Source: a virus. Taken from it: DNA of 64,000 bases. Where the stretch lies: the IMG/VR virus record IMGVR_UViG_3300023179_000033, positions 1 through 64,000 of that record. One strand, written 5' to 3'. Made by a program: the position numbers and the translations under genes. The notes beneath the pieces are model-generated. The model saw nothing but the letters and a program-made list of their open reading frames with translations, did not search any database and was not told the DNA's origin. Shown here one piece after another: positions 15,909-47,360 of the stretch (position 1 is its first letter; each line of letters starts with the position of its first letter).

Positions 15909-16424
15909 GTGACTGTTTCGGAAAGAGATATTGATTTTTTTGCAAAGAAATTAGGTTTATCACCAGAAAAGACTTTCCTGTTGTTGCAAGATCCAGATTG
16001 TCTTCCAGAAATTTTAAATAAAGTAGCAGAAGACAATATAGATGGAATTGTAGATATTAGCTTTCCAGTTTTCGCCGAACTAACTATTATAAAATATAGC
16101 AAAGATTTAAAATATCCATTCGAAGAAAAAGAGTATGTTTCGCAAGCAGTTGGTTCTAAATTCTATGATCTAATAGAAACTCCATTACAAAATAAATATT
16201 TTTTTACCTTACAACATGATGAAGATACAGCTAAATCTGTTCTAGTATTTCTTGGATTTTTTTATAAAAGTTTAGAAAAACTCAGAAGATCATATCCATC
16301 AGAAAATGTTTATTATAATATAGCAAAAAATGGTTTTGAAAATTCAGAAAAAGAAGAAATATCTTATCATCTTAAAGATTGGATTAAAGTATTAAGAATT
16401 ATACATAATGAAGTTTGGTATTAA
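15909..16424 (+). CDS. Hypothetical protein, 171 aa
   Basis: Soluble alpha/beta protein without recognised motifs; the N-terminus resembles a small helical region (ERDIDFFAKKLGLSPEKTF). GTG start. It ends just before a divergent RNA locus. Function unknown. Confidence 0.5.
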   Translation: MTVSERDIDFFAKKLGLSPEKTFLLLQDPDCLPEILNKVAEDNIDGIVDISFPVFAELTIIKYSKDLKYPFEEKEYVSQAVGSKFYDLIETPLQNKYFFTLQHDEDTAKSVLVFLGFFYKSLEKLRRSYPSENVYYNIAKNGFENSEKEEISYHLKDWIKVLRIIHNEVWY

Positions 16425-16439
16425 TACTATATTCTTAAA

Positions 16440-16755
16440 TTATTTAACTTTTCTTTGATATCCAAAAGGGCTTTACCTCCAGATTTTATATATCTGAAGT
16501 TAAGTATTATCAATCCAACTTTTCTTTTGACTCCAAATTTATCACGATCTCAGCGATAAACGGGCCATCGCACTTATTGGTCAGAGGTAGCTTCTACCAC
16601 TACATTCTGCGATGCCTATAGCTACATTCCCTTCAAAAGCCATATTATGTACAAACGAAGGTTTTAATAGTTGTCAGCCCTTTAGACATTGCTATCTCAA
16701 GGATTGATAGTTGATTTTTTGACATCAACAAACTGCTCTAATTGGAAGCTATGTT
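16440..16755 (-). ncRNA. Candidate structured ncRNA with pseudoknot
   Basis: A 350-nt stretch without a convincing gene holds a strong minus-strand promoter and extensive base pairing. TATCAATCC (16701-16709) pairs with GGATTGATA (16508-16516), and AAAGGGCT (16676-16683) pairs with AGCCCTTT (16465-16472). The two helices interleave and form a pseudoknot. Inside lie CTTTTGA/TCAAAAG (16633-16639 with 16524-16530), CATCGCA/TGCGATG (16608-16614 with 16566-16572) and a GGTAG-AAG-CTACC hairpin. It matches no RNA I recognise: the RNase P, SRP, 6S and group I cores are not found. The ends are estimated, and no terminator is clear. Confidence 0.6.
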
Positions 16756-16760
16756 AATTT

Positions 16761-16789
16761 ATATTAGAATACATTTGCTTTTTTGTCAA
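16761..16789 (-). promoter_or_regulatory. Class A promoter of the candidate ncRNA
   Basis: On the minus strand: TTGACA (16784-16789), 17-nt spacer, TAATAT (16761-16766). The start is expected near 16754, and no minus-strand open frame follows, so the product should be RNA. Confidence 0.7.
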
Positions 16790-16809
16790 TTTTTTTTATA
16801 ATATATAAA

Positions 16810-17019
16810 ATGGAAATAATTAAAAATAAAGCCAGATGGTTATTGTATACTGAAAAATGCATAAAGCATTATAACATAGATAATGATAATATTTATGATG
16901 AACCTAGCGAATATCCTTGCATTGTAATACCACAATTAATTTCGGACATAAATGGCGCAAGAGTTAAATTTAATTTTGTTTATAAAAAAGATTGCCAAAA
17001 ATTATTAAAACATTTATAA
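16810..17019 (+). CDS. Hypothetical protein, 69 aa
   Basis: Small soluble protein (MEIIKNKARWLLYTEKC start). The ATG at 16810 lies 7 nt after a TATAAT box (16797-16802), so a leaderless start is likely; the in-frame ATG at 16783 lies upstream of that box. Located between the ncRNA promoter and the tmRNA. No family recognised. Confidence 0.5.
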   Translation: MEIIKNKARWLLYTEKCIKHYNIDNDNIYDEPSEYPCIVIPQLISDINGARVKFNFVYKKDCQKLLKHL

Positions 17020-17049: not shown

Positions 17050-17471
17050 GGGCGCGTACTGGTTTCGATTTTAGGAATCGGAATTAAAATGCAGGTAGAG
17101 GTTTAGGTGGGTCTCTTTAAAAAGCCTTAAAAGTATTAACTGCTAAAACAGCTAAATACAAAGGTCATATCTCTGCTAGAGTTTCTCTAGTCGAGGAGAC
17201 CGCTTCTGTAGCTTAAGTTCTACAGCGTGATTACCATGACACATCTACTGGATAATTGCGTAATTAGATGTATTTTTATAAAATCCTTTTCATTTAATTT
17301 TTTATAAAAATTATTAAGGGTAAATTTGACCAAGGTTGAATTTATTATTAAATGAATAGCTAAAAACCAATTGTTTATTCGACTCTTTAGCGAATCAACG
17401 GAATAAACTAAACTTGTAGTATTTTAATTTAAATTCACTAAAACACGAAGGTTCAACTCCTTCCGCGTCCA
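17050..17471 (+). ncRNA. ssrA: Transfer-messenger RNA (tmRNA)
   Basis: Rescues stalled ribosomes by adding a degradation tag. The acceptor stem GGGCGCG (17050-17056) pairs with CGCGTCC (17464-17470), with discriminator A. The T-arm is GAAGG-TTCAACT-CCTTC, directly adjacent. The tag reading frame probably resumes at GCT 17142, in an ACTGCTAAAAC context, and ends at TAA 17214-17216. This gives about 24 residues starting AKTAKYKG and ending ETASVA, a small apolar end as in other tags. The stop lies in the hairpin CTGTAG/CTACAG (17206-17225). The T-arm-to-acceptor geometry and length (about 420 nt) fit one-piece tmRNAs. CCA is not encoded. Confidence 0.9.
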
Positions 17472-17524
17472 AAGAAAATGATCTTACAAAAAAGAAACGA
17501 TAAATTTTATAAATCAAATTAAAA

Positions 17525-21413: not shown

Positions 21414-22148
21414 ATGAAAATAAACTCATTGAAAATATTAGCTAAAAAAGTATCCGCAACTTTATTTGCGGTTTTTTTGTCTTTAAATATAGCAAAATCA
21501 GAAGTAATTTTTACTGAAAATTTTGAAGATGGATCATGGGATGGATTCACCGCGTATCCCTCTGCGAACACATCAGTATTAAATTCTGGTGATACAATCT
21601 ATGGCGCTCCAACAACAGGAGAAATTGGGACATATATTATAGCTCCAGAAGGATCAAAACTAGGTAAAATGTGGCCATTATATTGGTCTCCCGGAAATGT
21701 AACTACATCTATCTTTGTAAAATATGATGATTATTGGGCAACACCAGAAACTGGATGGGTTCCTTATTTACAAGGCAAACAAGTCAAACTATCAATGGAC
21801 GTTTATATATCTAGTTATGATCCAATGCAAACTACTACTAATGTAAGTATATTTGCAAAATTCTTTAATCAAGACTATTCATACTATTATGATTGGGCAT
21901 CAGTAATTACTTCTGTAAAAGATTCATTGTTAGATACATGGGTAGCTAGGGAAATAGTTGTAACAGTTCCAAATGATGTTTCAGTTATTCAATTTGGATT
22001 AGAGATGACTCAACAAAATTATAGTTCTGGTTCTATAAATGTTGATAATATGGCAATTCAAATCGTGCCAGAACCATCATCTTCTTCTTTGCTTCTAATT
22101 GGTTCCATATCTTTAATTGCACTTAGGAGATTAAAGAGAAATGGATGA
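21414..22148 (+). CDS. Secreted PEP-CTERM protein, CBM-like, 244 aa
   Basis: Residues 1-29 are a signal peptide (basic start, hydrophobic ATLFAVFLSLNIA, AKS cleavage site). The mature part is a beta-rich domain starting EVIFTENFEDGSWDGF, similar in style to carbohydrate-binding jelly-roll domains. The last 27 residues are a PEP-CTERM signal: VPEPSSSS, a hydrophobic helix, then RRLKRNG. Such proteins are cut and anchored by host exosortase. The phage gene therefore seems to make an exported, host-sorted surface or matrix protein. It overlaps the next gene by 8 nt. Confidence 0.8.
   Translation: MKINSLKILAKKVSATLFAVFLSLNIAKSEVIFTENFEDGSWDGFTAYPSANTSVLNSGDTIYGAPTTGEIGTYIIAPEGSKLGKMWPLYWSPGNVTTSIFVKYDDYWATPETGWVPYLQGKQVKLSMDVYISSYDPMQTTTNVSIFAKFFNQDYSYYYDWASVITSVKDSLLDTWVAREIVVTVPNDVSVIQFGLEMTQQNYSSGSINVDNMAIQIVPEPSSSSLLLIGSISLIALRRLKRNG
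21454..21478 (+). terminator. Terminator-shaped hairpin inside the signal peptide coding region
   Basis: The stem CCGCAA/TTGCGG with a 6-nt loop is followed by seven T, within codons 14-22 of the PEP-CTERM gene. It has the form of an intrinsic terminator and could lower expression unless ribosomes follow closely. It may also be a chance product of Ala and Phe codons. Confidence 0.45.
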
Positions 22149-22380
22149 TAATTTGAAAACTTTATTAAAAAAAAATTACTATCAATCAGACCCTAAACAA
22201 ACTGAAAATTTTATAAAAAATTTTCATCAATATAGAATTAAAAAACAATCTGAAAGAAAAACTAATTTGCTTGCAATTTTATTATTAATTGTTGTAGCAG
22301 TCTGTGGATTTTCCATAGTCTTAAAAGAAACAAACAATAAATTAGATATACAAACATCATCAGGAGAAATAAAAAAATGA
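22141..22380 (+). CDS. Single-span membrane protein, 79 aa
   Basis: A basic soluble N-terminal half (about 40 residues) is followed by a transmembrane segment (about 43-60, LLAILLLIVVAVCGFSIVL) and a short polar tail. It overlaps the PEP-CTERM genes on both sides (8 and 4 nt), so it belongs to the same operon. The topology resembles a small adaptor or anti-sigma-like protein; no family recognised. Confidence 0.5.
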   Translation: MDDNLKTLLKKNYYQSDPKQTENFIKNFHQYRIKKQSERKTNLLAILLLIVVAVCGFSIVLKETNNKLDIQTSSGEIKK

Positions 22381-23147
22381 AAAAAATACTAAAAATATTA
22401 GCCGCATTGTTATTAATTAACATAAGCGCTCACGCTGAACTTATTTTAGTTGATTTTGGTGCTTCTGGCGCAGGATGGTATGGTGGAGCATCTGTAGTTG
22501 GCGCAGATGCTAATGGTAATTATTGGAATAGTGTTACTTCGGGATCATACTATTCTAATCTATTAAATACTGCTGGAAATCAAACTTCTATTGGAGGATT
22601 TGGATTTATAACTGGTATGGCATTTAATAGTTATAATGGACCCGCAGGACCAACATCTAATCCCCTTATTCAATCTCAAATAAATGCAACTGCATTTACA
22701 TCTGCTGCAGGTATATTTGGAGTAAAAGAAGCATTAGTAGATTATATTGCAACAACTTCTAGCGTACCAAGTGTGAAATGGAGTATAAATGGTTTAGATT
22801 CATCAGTTTTATATACTATAAAATTTTATGGATCAGCAAAATATCAAAATGATTATGCTACAAAACTTAATGTATATAGTGATAATACATTTAATTCAAG
22901 TAGTCTAATTGCTACGGCTACAGCTAATTATCAAAGTCCTACTCAGTCATGGGTAATTAATACAACAGATATCGGCGTACTACCTAATTTAACAACAACA
23001 GGTTCATTATATTTTGAAATGCGTGGCGCAAACGGAGGAACAGGTTTAATAAATGCTATGAGTATCGAATCATTAGCGGCTATTCCAGAACCTTCTACTA
23101 TGCAATTAGTTTTATTAAGTTTGTTAGCACTTAGAAAAAGAAAATGA
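22377..23147 (+). CDS. Secreted PEP-CTERM protein, 256 aa
   Basis: Signal peptide at residues 1-20 (MKKILKILAALLLINISAHA). The mature part begins ELILVDFGASG...YWN, a pattern frequent in secreted PEP-CTERM proteins, followed by a beta-rich fold. The C-terminus is IPEPSTMQLVLLSLLALRKRK, a complete PEP-CTERM signal. It is the second such protein in the operon, unlike the first in its main domain. A role at the host surface or in extracellular polymer is inferred. Confidence 0.8.
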   Translation: MKKILKILAALLLINISAHAELILVDFGASGAGWYGGASVVGADANGNYWNSVTSGSYYSNLLNTAGNQTSIGGFGFITGMAFNSYNGPAGPTSNPLIQSQINATAFTSAAGIFGVKEALVDYIATTSSVPSVKWSINGLDSSVLYTIKFYGSAKYQNDYATKLNVYSDNTFNSSSLIATATANYQSPTQSWVINTTDIGVLPNLTTTGSLYFEMRGANGGTGLINAMSIESLAAIPEPSTMQLVLLSLLALRKRK

Positions 23148-43233: not shown

Positions 43234-45684
43234 ATGATATATTCACTACAAGTAGAAAGACATGTATTAAGCGGGCTGTTAAAACATCAAGATTTGTTTG
43301 CTGATATTGATGTATTTTTAACCGAGAACGATTTTTATAATGACGTTCATTCGTCAATATATACTGTATTTAAAAATATTAAACATAAAGGCGAAAATGT
43401 AGATAAGATTCTATTAGCTGAAAAGATCAAGAATCTAGGTATATCATTTAAAGATGAAATTAATATTTTTGACTATATTGATAATTTAAGTTTTTCACAG
43501 ATCACAGAAGAAGCTACTTTAAATGCTTGTAAAGAATTAATCAAATTAAGAATCCGTAGAGAAATATCTCAAACAGCAGATAAATTAAAAGAATATGTTA
43601 ATAAAAATTCAGAAGATTCAATTGACGATATCATTGGCAAAATAGATCAGATATATAATAAGAAGATTTCAGCATATTCAGAAAATGATATGCCAGTTAA
43701 TATTTTTTCTGAAGTAGAAGACCTTATTGAAGAAATTGGTAATTCTCCAAAAGAAGATACAGGATTGATTACGCCATATTCTGAATTTAATAGAATGTAT
43801 GGTGGTTTAAAAAATAGTAATATTTATGCAATTGCTAGTAGACCGGGGCAAGGTAAAGCTTTAGAAGAAAATACTATTATTTTAACACCAAATGGATTTT
43901 TAAAAATAAAAGATATAAAAGTTGGAGATTATGTATTTTCTATAGATGGCAAACCTACAAAAGTACTAGGAGTAAGAAAATGGGAAAATAGACAAATTTA
44001 TAAAGTATCTACAGATGATAATCAATATATTTTAGCAGATGAAAATCATGAATGGACAGTTCAACAAAGAAGTGATTATAAATGGAAAACTTTAACAACG
44101 AAATATCTTTTTGAAAATAAGTTTAATAAAAAGCCCAAAATTCCTAATTATAAACCTATTCAATTAACTCAACAAAGATTGTTAATTGATCCATATATAT
44201 TAGGAGCTTGGCTAGGTGACGGCAATAGTAACTCAAGTGTATTAACATCAAATGATGCATTTATAATTAATAAATGGAAAATTTTTGGAAAAAAAATTGG
44301 TTTGAAATGCAAAAAATATTCAAGATATGGATATAGATTATGCTCTAATAATAAAAAGAATATATTTACATCATATATAAAATATTTAAATATATTCAAT
44401 AATAAACATATACCTCAAATATATTTAATGGGATCTATAAAACAAAGAAGAGCTTTACTCCAAGGCTTAATTGATACGGATGGATACGTAGCACCAGATG
44501 GTCAAGTTGAATTTTGTAATACAAATAAAAAACTTGCGGAAGATGTTTTATTCTTAATACATTCTTTGGGTATTAAAGCGTCTATGTATGAATCTGATTC
44601 CTTTTTATATAATAAATTTTGTGGTAAAAAATATAGAATAAGATTTTATTATCAATATGCTGCTAAATTACCAAGAAAACGAAAAAATTGTATTAATAGT
44701 AAAAAATATAATCATAGATATTTATCTATAGAAAAATATGGCGTGGGAAATACTGTATGTTTACAAGTAGATCATCCATCTCATTTATTTTTAGCTGGTA
44801 AAGCTTTAATAACGACTCACAATAGTACATGGTTAAATGATATCTGTTTTAAAACTTCTATCAATCCTAAGAATAAAACCAAAACTTTAATTTTAGATAC
44901 GGAAATGCAAACTGTAGATATCCAATTAAGAATGGTTGCATCGCTAACTGATGTACCAGTATGGTATTTGGAAACAGGAAATTGGCGTAAAAACGAAGAG
45001 ATGACCAAAAAAGTTCGTGCGGCTTGGGCAAAAGTAAAAACATATGAATATTTTCATTATCATGTAGGAAATAAAAATATTGATCAAGTTTGCTCTATCA
45101 TTCGTAGATGGTATCTCTCAAAGGTTGGTCGTGGAAATCAAGCTATGATTGCTTATGACTATATCAAACTAACTGGAGAAAAAGTTGGTCAAAATTGGGC
45201 AGAACATCAAGCTATTGGAGAAAAGATTGATAAACTAAAAAGAATATCAGAAGAAATACATTGTCCAATTATTACTGCAATGCAATTAAATAGAACAGGC
45301 GAAAATTTTAATAGAAATTCTAATAATGTAGTTGATGATAGTTCTGTAATTTCACTCTCCGATAGACTTCAATGGTTTGCGTCATTCGTAGCCATCTTTA
45401 GAAGGAAAACTCTTGATGAAGTTACGCTTGATGGACAAGCATTTGGAACGCACAAATTAATTCCAACAAAAACAAGATTCCAAGGTAAAGATGCGGCTGG
45501 ACACCAAGATCTAGTTAGAAGATTAGATTCTGCGGGAAAAGAAGTATGGGCGCAAAACTATTTAAATTATCAAGTTACAAATTTTAATATTGAAGAGCGT
45601 GGTTCACTCAGAGATGTTGCAGAAAGACAAAGAGAGCAATATGAACTCACCGATCAAAATAGAAATGATGGAGAATTGCTATGA
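43234..45684 (+). CDS. dnaB: Replicative DNA helicase DnaB with intein, 816 aa precursor
   Basis: Unwinds DNA ahead of the fork. The extein N-domain (1-120) starts MIYSLQVERHVLSGLLKH, as in DnaB. The RecA-like domain has Walker A SRPGQGK-ST, interrupted exactly between K208 and S531 by an intein; removal restores GQGKST. MIAYDYIKLTG is the Walker B region, and KTRFQGKDAAG lies near the end. Mature length is about 494 aa. The gene overlaps thyX by 4 nt (ATGA). Confidence 0.9.
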   Translation: MIYSLQVERHVLSGLLKHQDLFADIDVFLTENDFYNDVHSSIYTVFKNIKHKGENVDKILLAEKIKNLGISFKDEINIFDYIDNLSFSQITEEATLNACKELIKLRIRREISQTADKLKEYVNKNSEDSIDDIIGKIDQIYNKKISAYSENDMPVNIFSEVEDLIEEIGNSPKEDTGLITPYSEFNRMYGGLKNSNIYAIASRPGQGKALEENTIILTPNGFLKIKDIKVGDYVFSIDGKPTKVLGVRKWENRQIYKVSTDDNQYILADENHEWTVQQRSDYKWKTLTTKYLFENKFNKKPKIPNYKPIQLTQQRLLIDPYILGAWLGDGNSNSSVLTSNDAFIINKWKIFGKKIGLKCKKYSRYGYRLCSNNKKNIFTSYIKYLNIFNNKHIPQIYLMGSIKQRRALLQGLIDTDGYVAPDGQVEFCNTNKKLAEDVLFLIHSLGIKASMYESDSFLYNKFCGKKYRIRFYYQYAAKLPRKRKNCINSKKYNHRYLSIEKYGVGNTVCLQVDHPSHLFLAGKALITTHNSTWLNDICFKTSINPKNKTKTLILDTEMQTVDIQLRMVASLTDVPVWYLETGNWRKNEEMTKKVRAAWAKVKTYEYFHYHVGNKNIDQVCSIIRRWYLSKVGRGNQAMIAYDYIKLTGEKVGQNWAEHQAIGEKIDKLKRISEEIHCPIITAMQLNRTGENFNRNSNNVVDDSSVISLSDRLQWFASFVAIFRRKTLDEVTLDGQAFGTHKLIPTKTRFQGKDAAGHQDLVRRLDSAGKEVWAQNYLNYQVTNFNIEERGSLRDVAERQREQYELTDQNRNDGELL
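43858..44823 (+). mobile_element. Class 3-type intein with LAGLIDADG endonuclease in DnaB, 322 aa
   Basis: Residues 209-530 of the DnaB frame. The first residue is Ala instead of Cys/Ser; the C-terminal end is ITTHN followed by Ser. Class 3 inteins carry a W-C-T set: Trp in ENHEWTV (block B), Cys in NTVCLQVDHPSHLFLA at the block F position, and Thr before the final His-Asn. All three are seen. LLIDPYILGAWLGDG and ALLQGLIDTDGYV are the two LAGLIDADG motifs of the homing endonuclease. Confidence 0.82.
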
Positions 45685-47360
45685 ATGTAGAATTAATCTC
45701 AATTACAAAACCAGAAATTAAAGGAATTAAAAATGCAGAAGATCTTGTAGCATTTTGCGCTAGAGTTAGCAATCCATCTAATCAGATGAATACAGAGACT
45801 GCGCCAAAACTTTTAAAGTTTTTAATAAAACATAAGCATTGGAGTCCATTTGAACTAGTAGATATGTGCGTTGAAATTAAGACTAGTCGTGGTATTGCTG
45901 CGCAGATTCTTAGGCATAGATCATTTAGTTTTCAAGAATTTTGTATATCTGGCGATTCATTGATAACATGTATTATTCCTTCTAATAAATTACCTAATTA
46001 TATTCCTATTGAAAAATTATTTAAAAGACAAAAATGGAAAAATTATAAAAATATATTAGTTAGAGTTTATGATGAAAATAGAAAAGAATTTACGACATCA
46101 AAAATAAAAGAAGTTTTTTATACTGGTAAAAAACCTGTATATAAAATTACTTTATCAGATGGTAAAGAAATAAAATGCACAAAAGAACATAAATTTTATA
46201 CAGATTCTGGATTTAGGAGTTTAGAAGATATAATCGGTTTAGATACTAAACATCATGCTATGACAAAACAAGGATATATTGCTGTTAATGGTATTCCTTG
46301 TTATCAAAATTACGAATGGATGCGTCAATCAAAACAAGAAGCCCTAATTAATAAATTAGGTTTAAAATATATATCACAGAAAGCAAATTGTTCTTATCAT
46401 ACTATAAGAAAATGGCTAACTAAACATAAATTAAATTTTACTAAAAAAGAAGTGGCAATATGTTTTCCTATTTGGAATAAAGATAAATTTGGATATAAAA
46501 CTAATTTAATTGTTTCTGAAAAACATAAAGAAGCTATAAGAAAAGCTAGAAGTAAAGAAAAATGTAATTTTTGGAAAGGTGGATGTGATAGATCAGAACG
46601 ATTAAAAATTGCAGATTGGTGTCAAAAAATAAGAAAACAAAAATTACAAGAATTTAATTATAAATGTAATATTTGTGAATCAAACTCAAAACTAGAGCTT
46701 GACCATATAATACCGGTATATAAAGACAAAACAAAAGCATATAATTATGATAATATTCAAGTTTTATGCTCTAATTGTCATGATAAAAAACATAATATTA
46801 ATGGCGATCCAAAAGAATACAGGCTTCTTAGCGGGGGAAATACTTTATCAATTAAATATGTTTTAATTGAAAAGATAGAATATTTAGGAAAAGAAGACAC
46901 GTATGACATGGAGGTATATCATAATAGCCATAATTATATAGCTAATAAAATTTTAGCACATAACTCTCAAAGATATAGTATTGCAAATGAGTTTGAAGAT
47001 ATTGAACTTCGTTTGCAGGGAGATAAAAACAGACAGGTTGGCGAAAAGTTAATGCCAATAGGTACAGATGCTTACGATAAAGTAAATGAATTACTAGTAG
47101 AATCATTATCTTTGTCACAGCATTGTTATGAAACGATGATAGAGAATGGTGTTGCAAAAGAAGTCGCCAGAATGATATTACCATTAACAACACAAACAAC
47201 TATGTATATGAAAGGTTCATTAAGAAGCTGGATTCATTATATCGAATTAAGAACCGAACAAAATACTCAAAAAGAACATAGAGAAATCGCGGAAAGATGT
47301 AAAAAAATATTTATTAAGGAATTTCCTACAATAAGTGAGGCTTTAGAATGGAACAAGTAA
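45681..47360 (+). CDS. thyX: FAD-dependent thymidylate synthase ThyX with intein, 559 aa precursor
   Basis: Makes dTMP from dUMP with methylene-THF and FAD. After intein removal the signature RHRSFSFQEF-SQRY (RHRxxSxxxxSxRY) is complete. The extein is 87 + 131 = 218 aa, normal length. The N-terminal FCARVSNPSNQMNTETAPKLLKFL is as in ThyX; the C-terminal GSLRSWIHYIELRT is the conserved substrate segment. Works downstream of the dCMP deaminase. The start overlaps dnaB. Confidence 0.9.
   Translation: MNVELISITKPEIKGIKNAEDLVAFCARVSNPSNQMNTETAPKLLKFLIKHKHWSPFELVDMCVEIKTSRGIAAQILRHRSFSFQEFCISGDSLITCIIPSNKLPNYIPIEKLFKRQKWKNYKNILVRVYDENRKEFTTSKIKEVFYTGKKPVYKITLSDGKEIKCTKEHKFYTDSGFRSLEDIIGLDTKHHAMTKQGYIAVNGIPCYQNYEWMRQSKQEALINKLGLKYISQKANCSYHTIRKWLTKHKLNFTKKEVAICFPIWNKDKFGYKTNLIVSEKHKEAIRKARSKEKCNFWKGGCDRSERLKIADWCQKIRKQKLQEFNYKCNICESNSKLELDHIIPVYKDKTKAYNYDNIQVLCSNCHDKKHNINGDPKEYRLLSGGNTLSIKYVLIEKIEYLGKEDTYDMEVYHNSHNYIANKILAHNSQRYSIANEFEDIELRLQGDKNRQVGEKLMPIGTDAYDKVNELLVESLSLSQHCYETMIENGVAKEVARMILPLTTQTTMYMKGSLRSWIHYIELRTEQNTQKEHREIAERCKKIFIKEFPTISEALEWNK
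45942..46964 (+). mobile_element. Class 1 intein with HNH endonuclease in ThyX, 341 aa
   Basis: Residues 88-428 of the ThyX frame, starting CISGDSLI (Cys1) and ending ANKILAHN before Ser+1. The insertion point lies inside the FAD/dUMP signature of ThyX. An HNH nuclease sits within: CNICESNSKLELDHIIPVY and NIQVLCSNCHDKKH with zinc-knuckle Cys. It thus differs from the DnaB intein in class and nuclease type, so the two were acquired independently. Confidence 0.88.

Follow-up and report, generated by a model that had tools for sequence, protein, structure and literature searches.

The window analysed in this study covers 64,000 nucleotides from the beginning of a virus record 118,245 bp in length, and according to its ORF list the interval 16425-16809 is intergenic and flanked by a 171-aa and a 69-aa ORF. 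The question raised by this locus is what the interval encodes. The original prediction placed here, next to a tmRNA gene, a new structured RNA of the phage that contains a pseudoknot and is transcribed from a promoter of its own; the coordinates given for it were correct, and the RNA does lie by the tmRNA, with the 69-aa ORF in between. Neither of the two ORFs matched a Pfam or PHROG family, and both are kept across the phage clade.

Folded as a single sequence, the interval was modestly better than chance on the minus strand (z = -2.45) and on the plus strand (z = -2.04), and since these values are only mild and alike on both strands, relatives were needed as proof. The 171-aa ORF is encoded by 35 viral contigs, most of which carry the RNA alongside it, and further members were collected from IMG/VR with two queries, a 17-nt motif of the RNA (GGAGTYAAAAGAAAAGT) and a pattern combining two motifs. 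In this way, 51 distinct full-length members, plus some contig-edge fragments, were assembled from phage contigs and divided into type A (n = 37, including the window), type B (n = 9) and type C (n = 5), with about 65-70% identity between types. The RNA is present as a single copy per genome.

The fold of the RNA comprises 11 helices and two crossing long-range pairings, all of which covary (Table 1). In pseudoknot 1, LR1 and LR2 cross each other, and the loop of P4 supplies the 5′ strand of LR1. LR1 amounts to 8 bp in the window when one additional A-U pair is counted, and its strands read AAGGGCU:AGCCCUU in type A, GAAGACU:AGUCUUC in type B, and AUAGGCU:AGCCUAU and GAAGGCU:AGCCUUC in type C. 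Compensatory changes in LR2 gave CAAUCU:AGAUUG and CGAUCC:GGAUCG in type A and UAGUCCUUUGUC:GACAAAAGACUA in L024; types B and C have a longer version of this helix (12-15 nt), the type C strands having been checked by eye only. In pseudoknot 2, a strand upstream of P7 is joined by P6 to the loop of P8, the pairing being GUAGCU:AGCUAC in type A, GUGGCU:AGCCAC and GUGGAU:AUCCAC in type B, and GUAGGU:ACCUAC in type C. The 5′ strands of P5 are CCUUC, CCUUA, CCUUU, UUCCC, CCUCA, AUUGC and GUUGU, and P9 occurs with more than 10 different stems, almost every one of them paired throughout. The 9-bp and 8-bp helices that had been proposed in crossing order (LR2 and LR1) were borne out by compensatory changes; the pseudoknot of the earlier structure stands, and a second pseudoknot (P6) and several helices had been overlooked.

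Table 1. Features of the locus in the window (for helices, the two paired strands are given in parentheses or separated by a slash)
Feature	Position	Strand	Sequence or remark
171-aa ORF	15909-16424	+	ends just before the intergenic interval; convergent with the RNA
69-aa ORF	16810..17019	+	divergent from the RNA; neighbour at most type A and B loci
Phage tmRNA gene	17050..17472	+	ARAGORN and RF00023, 87 bits; separate neighbour, outside the RNA
-35 element	16784..16789	-	TTGACA; exact in 50/50 members with upstream sequence
-10 element	16761..16766	-	TAATAT; TANNAT with spacer 17 in 50/50 members with upstream sequence
Structured noncoding RNA	16447..16754	-	alignment of 51 members; ~310 nt
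P1 hairpin	16735..16749 (16749-46 / 16738-35)	-	GCUU:GAGC, GUCC:GGAC, GCCU:AGGC, GCUU:AAGC
P2 hairpin	16710..16729 (16729-25 / 16714-10)	-	covariation in all three types
LR2, long-range 9-bp helix	16508..16709 (16709-01 / 16516-08)	-	UAUCAAUCC:GGAUUGAUA in the window
P3	16667..16695 (16695-92 / 16670-67)	-	AUAG:CUAU to AUGG:CCAU; encloses P4
P4 hairpin	16688-85 / 16675-72	-	UGUC:GACA, CGUC:GACG, CGC:GCG
LR1, long-range helix	16466..16682 (16682-76 / 16472-66)	-	AAGGGCU:AGCCCUU in the window
P5 hairpin	16630..16661 (16661-57 / 16634-30)	-	seven 5′ strands, each with a matching partner
P6	16587..16625 (16625-20 / 16592-87)	-	3′ strand in the P8 loop within P7
P7	16563..16616 (16616-08 / 16572-63)	-	AUCGCA:UGCGAU, ACGGCA:UGCCGU, ACAGCA:UGCUGU, AUGGCA:UGCCAU; encloses P8
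P8	16598-95 / 16582-79	-	GAUC:GAUC, GGUC:GACC, GAGG:CCUC, GGAA:UUCC
P9 hairpin	16538..16560 (16560-53 / 16545-38)	-	most variable helix
Motif 1	16518..16534	-	GGAGUYAAAAGAAAAGU; unpaired; nearly invariant in the three types
P10 hairpin	16475..16500 (16500-496 / 16479-475)	-	ACUUC:GAGGU, ACCUC:GAGGU, CCUCA:UGAGG
Motif 2	16447..16463	-	GGAUAUYAAAGAAAAGU; unpaired; near-repeat of motif 1; nearly invariant in the three types

The covariation was quantified over 63 pairs in the 51 sequences (3,213 cells), of which 98.6% were canonical; both sides had changed at 42 of the 63 pairs, and all 51-sequence figures include out-of-register type C LR2 strands and are thereby slightly lowered. Double-change cells numbered 437, against a mean of about 97 and a maximum of 128 when partner strands were shuffled between sequences, a control that leaves relatedness in. 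For 17 type A sequences, 37 double-change cells were counted against 9.2 in shuffles (0/500), and when the partners were slid, with relatedness kept, paired cells in type A fell from 99.3% to 28-51% and double-change cells from 37 to 0-6. The covariation was far stronger with all three types together than in type A alone. Among the 51 members, G·U cells (92) exceeded A·C cells (5), which shows the RNA to be read from the minus strand. The covariation in homologues that had been named as a check was thus strong, compensatory changes across the alignment speak for both pseudoknots, and we regard it as virtually certain that the locus belongs to a structured, free-standing noncoding RNA family.

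No conserved reading frame was found on either strand, and none is common to the subtypes, so a protein-coding gene was rejected; a conserved open frame had also been named beforehand as the finding that would speak against an RNA. The only recurring frame, an antisense one of 55 aa, is seen in some type A members but not in the window, and most type B and C members lack it; stems and loops carry indels between types. Comparison of the relatives thus demonstrates a minus-strand product that acts as RNA and not as protein and whose fold has 11 helices joined by two pseudoknots.

The window and types B and C were searched with Rfam 15 (4227 models) at gathering and relaxed thresholds, and nothing credible was obtained for the RNA, in agreement with the earlier statement that it matches no recognised class. 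The best score was that of Termite-leu (13.8 bits against a cut-off of 51, E = 3.8), and the gathering cut-off was reached only by the tmRNA and tRNA neighbours. A group I intron and RNase P RNA were rejected because no family model matched at the relaxed threshold; the order of pairing of LR2 and LR1 also differs from that of P3 and P7 in group I introns. A tmRNA or a part of one was rejected as well, since ARAGORN and Rfam found only the separate gene at 17050-17472. The RNA resembles tmRNA in its several pseudoknots, in being phage-encoded and in the adjacent position of the two genes, but no tRNA-like ends or tag frame were detected in it, and RF00023 matched the neighbour only.

Like GOLLD, the RNA is noncoding, highly structured, phage-borne and devoid of an assigned function, and like ROOL it is phage-borne, with multiple pseudoknots and no known protein partner (PMC12286853). 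However, GOLLD is often longer than 800 nt and near tRNA islands, and its helices differ; ROOL is also longer (its disordered linker alone covers nt 414-464) and often near tRNA islands, whereas the present RNA lies near a single tmRNA or none. Neither Rfam model matched; the comparison drawn in the original prediction holds as an analogy, and kinship is unsupported given the differences in size, sequence and structure. The raiA-motif RNA (ModT) is likewise a conserved structured noncoding RNA (PMC11706538), but it occurs in thousands of bacterial species, and the present RNA was not found in bacterial genomes with the two-motif pattern. No description of it was found in open-access papers, and one is possible in subscription papers, in supplements outside the search or in older work. 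The family is new to Rfam 15, and the broad kind to which it belongs, that of phage structured noncoding RNAs with no assigned function, is already known.

In all 50 members with upstream DNA, TTGACA-N17-TANNAT precedes the first conserved base by 6-10 nt, and sequence conservation sets in at this predicted start site. The conserved start reads ACAUAG (AAAUAG in L037). The predicted 5′ end in the window is 16754, and the 3′ bound of 16447 is the last invariant base and not a mapped end. No intrinsic terminator 3′ of the RNA is conserved among the members, an A/T-rich hairpin being present there in a few of type A. From the promoter we infer that the RNA gene is transcribed by a host-type sigma-70 RNA polymerase starting at about 16754, and with such a start the RNA could be made without a phage polymerase. 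The minus-strand consensus promoter announced earlier was confirmed, its description as strong being a prediction backed by conservation; covariation, promoter and the negative Rfam result together support the new structured phage RNA.

Its distribution was examined in several databases. The two-motif pattern was also run against 84,980 bacterial and archaeal species, where none of its 4 matches was accompanied by the remainder of the RNA; blastn with 50,697 named phage records as the database gave chance pieces only at that sensitivity, and further scans for distant types gave just type A contig-edge fragments and chance matches. Judging from these scans, the RNA is a phage-specific family. 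Among 36 records searched, it was found in 31 and a tmRNA above the cut-off in 32. The RNA was undetected in G001, G004, G005, G006 and G007 (L002, L014, L015, L016 and L019) by the partial covariance model R1, which covers half of the RNA only and gave chance matches there, one within an ORF. These five records, which may be fragments, carry the 171-aa ORF, with a tmRNA elsewhere in the record. The RNA is likely truly absent from them, so that not every member of the clade can depend on it.

Several other features of these records were noted. The phage tmRNA of the window (~422 nt; ~388 nt in most type A records) has a 24-aa tag according to ARAGORN (AKTAKYKGHISARVSLVEETASVA), conserved across the clade (L061, L064, L068, L075, L102 and others) and different from the short ALAA-ending tags that are usual; in type B records the tag is AKxAKLKGSFSLRVSHNKKHLIAA. 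Judged from translations only, the DnaB-like helicase and ThyX-like proteins at 43234-45684 and 45681-47360 carry apparent inteins, that of the ThyX-like protein including an HNH-like region. Secreted-looking proteins at 21414-22148 and 22377-23147 end in PEP-CTERM-like tails (VPEPSSSSLLLIGSISLIALRRLKRNG; IPEPSTMQLVLLSLLALRKRK), which are unusual for a phage and perhaps a pointer to the host.

As to function, motifs 1 and 2 are nearly unchanged even though the whole RNA diverges to about 67%; motif 1 served as a search pattern, so part of this invariance follows from selection of the members, and those found independently via the 171-aa ORF also retain both motifs. We tentatively propose that the RNA is a scaffold that displays the two A-rich elements to a partner of dimeric or repeated make-up, a reading that, in its broad form, falls just short of probable. 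The knotted core would form a rigid scaffold holding the two near-identical unpaired 17-nt elements, GGA..UYAAA(A)GAAAAGU, beside both long-range helices. The likeliest partner would be an RNA-binding protein from host or phage that is dimeric or repeated; it would bind both elements, and the resulting RNA-protein particle would modify or titrate a host function during infection.

Alternatively, the duplicated elements may serve as strands for tertiary contacts, either inside one copy of the RNA or from copy to copy. Assembly from RNA only, in which copies would join via loops and A-minor contacts into dimers or larger functional particles like GOLLD and ROOL, which form nanocages (PMC12286853), seems rather unlikely to us. 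It would suit the phage location, the dense pseudoknotted structure and the lack of an identified protein partner, but the RNA is far shorter than GOLLD, many examples of which exceed 800 nt. The large P5 loop, UUGURCAUWAUAUGGCU, is conserved in types A and B, and its palindrome UGUACA, which in most type B members and one of type A reads UGUGCA and stays self-complementary if wobbles are allowed, would favour such joining, yet in type C this position lacks the palindrome. The P9 loop is the 7-nt UGARAUY, which presumably fits the T-loop pattern, in all type A members and a tetraloop of the GCAA/GAAA type in most of type B; this exchange for GNRA-type loops, as docking loops make it, is consistent with a docking role.

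An improbable reading is that of a decoy titrating a host RNA-binding protein such as Hfq. Each motif contains AAGAAAAGU, which can be parsed as three ARN triplets, the pattern presumably recognised by the distal face of Hfq, a protein that the host may or may not possess. Retention of the two near-identical A-rich unpaired elements in all subtypes would agree with a decoy, as would a sigma-70 promoter, which fits early expression, but the fold is more elaborate than a decoy requires.

In types A and B, the RNA is usually divergent from the 69-aa ORF, past which lies the tmRNA, in most records no more than about 1 kb from the RNA. A role as helper or regulator of the phage tmRNA or the trans-translation pathway would explain this frequent adjacency, and type B records do have a different tag family; in type C, however, the tmRNA lies, where found, ~7-16 kb away, the five records named above have a tmRNA with no detectable RNA, and base complementarity between the two RNAs was no better than in shuffled controls. 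A tmRNA link is not established, and we consider such a role quite improbable. Among the genes of the window, antisense targets showed no pattern and none was convincing, the matches (up to 14 nt) being scattered in A/T-rich sequence and those to the tmRNA being at chance level.

The 3′ neighbours vary among loci (the convergent 171-aa ORF, a convergent 110-aa ORF, nrdA and others), so the RNA is not the leader of one gene; a cis-acting leader or riboswitch, to which type C lends itself with nrdA on the same strand 113-133 nt downstream, is very improbable and largely refuted, as the downstream gene is convergent at most type A and B loci and no constant same-direction gene follows. From the varied contexts and the invariant promoter-RNA unit, we infer that the RNA acts in trans.

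Conservation is higher in the RNA than in either the genes beside it or the phage tmRNA. Within type A, identity to the window RNA is 88-97%, whereas the 171-aa ORF, where adjacent, reaches 78-87% at the same loci and the tmRNA 71-80%, and conservation above that of the phage tmRNA suggests strong selection. L011, L020 and L024 combine a type B RNA (67-68% identical) and a diverged 69-aa ORF (62-67%) with a 171-aa ORF of 79-81% identity, which is close to type A, and comparison of L011/L115, L020/L103 and L024/L111 with 15909-17019 of the window suggests that the RNA block was replaced by recombination. Directly downstream of the RNA, L011 (type B) and L095 (type A) share a near-identical sequence of ~70 nt (GAGAAATAATCGATATAAGTAAAATATATACC...), perhaps a shared inserted gene.

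Beyond the proposed scaffold for two A-rich elements, the RNA may be a phage RNA machine of a new class, a possibility that we regard with reserve: a host-transcribed, doubly knotted RNA of ~310 nt, exchanged between phages as a cassette, which would act, as RNA or as an RNA-protein particle, on some host process for which no RNA-based counterpart is known. Complex structured phage RNAs without assigned roles are few (GOLLD, ROOL), and their structures surprised. The present RNA is compact, with about 50 aligned relatives, a covariation-tested fold, a defined promoter and a pair of candidate binding sites that hardly vary, and its size, relatives, tested fold and candidate sites should make structure determination and pull-down of a partner feasible.
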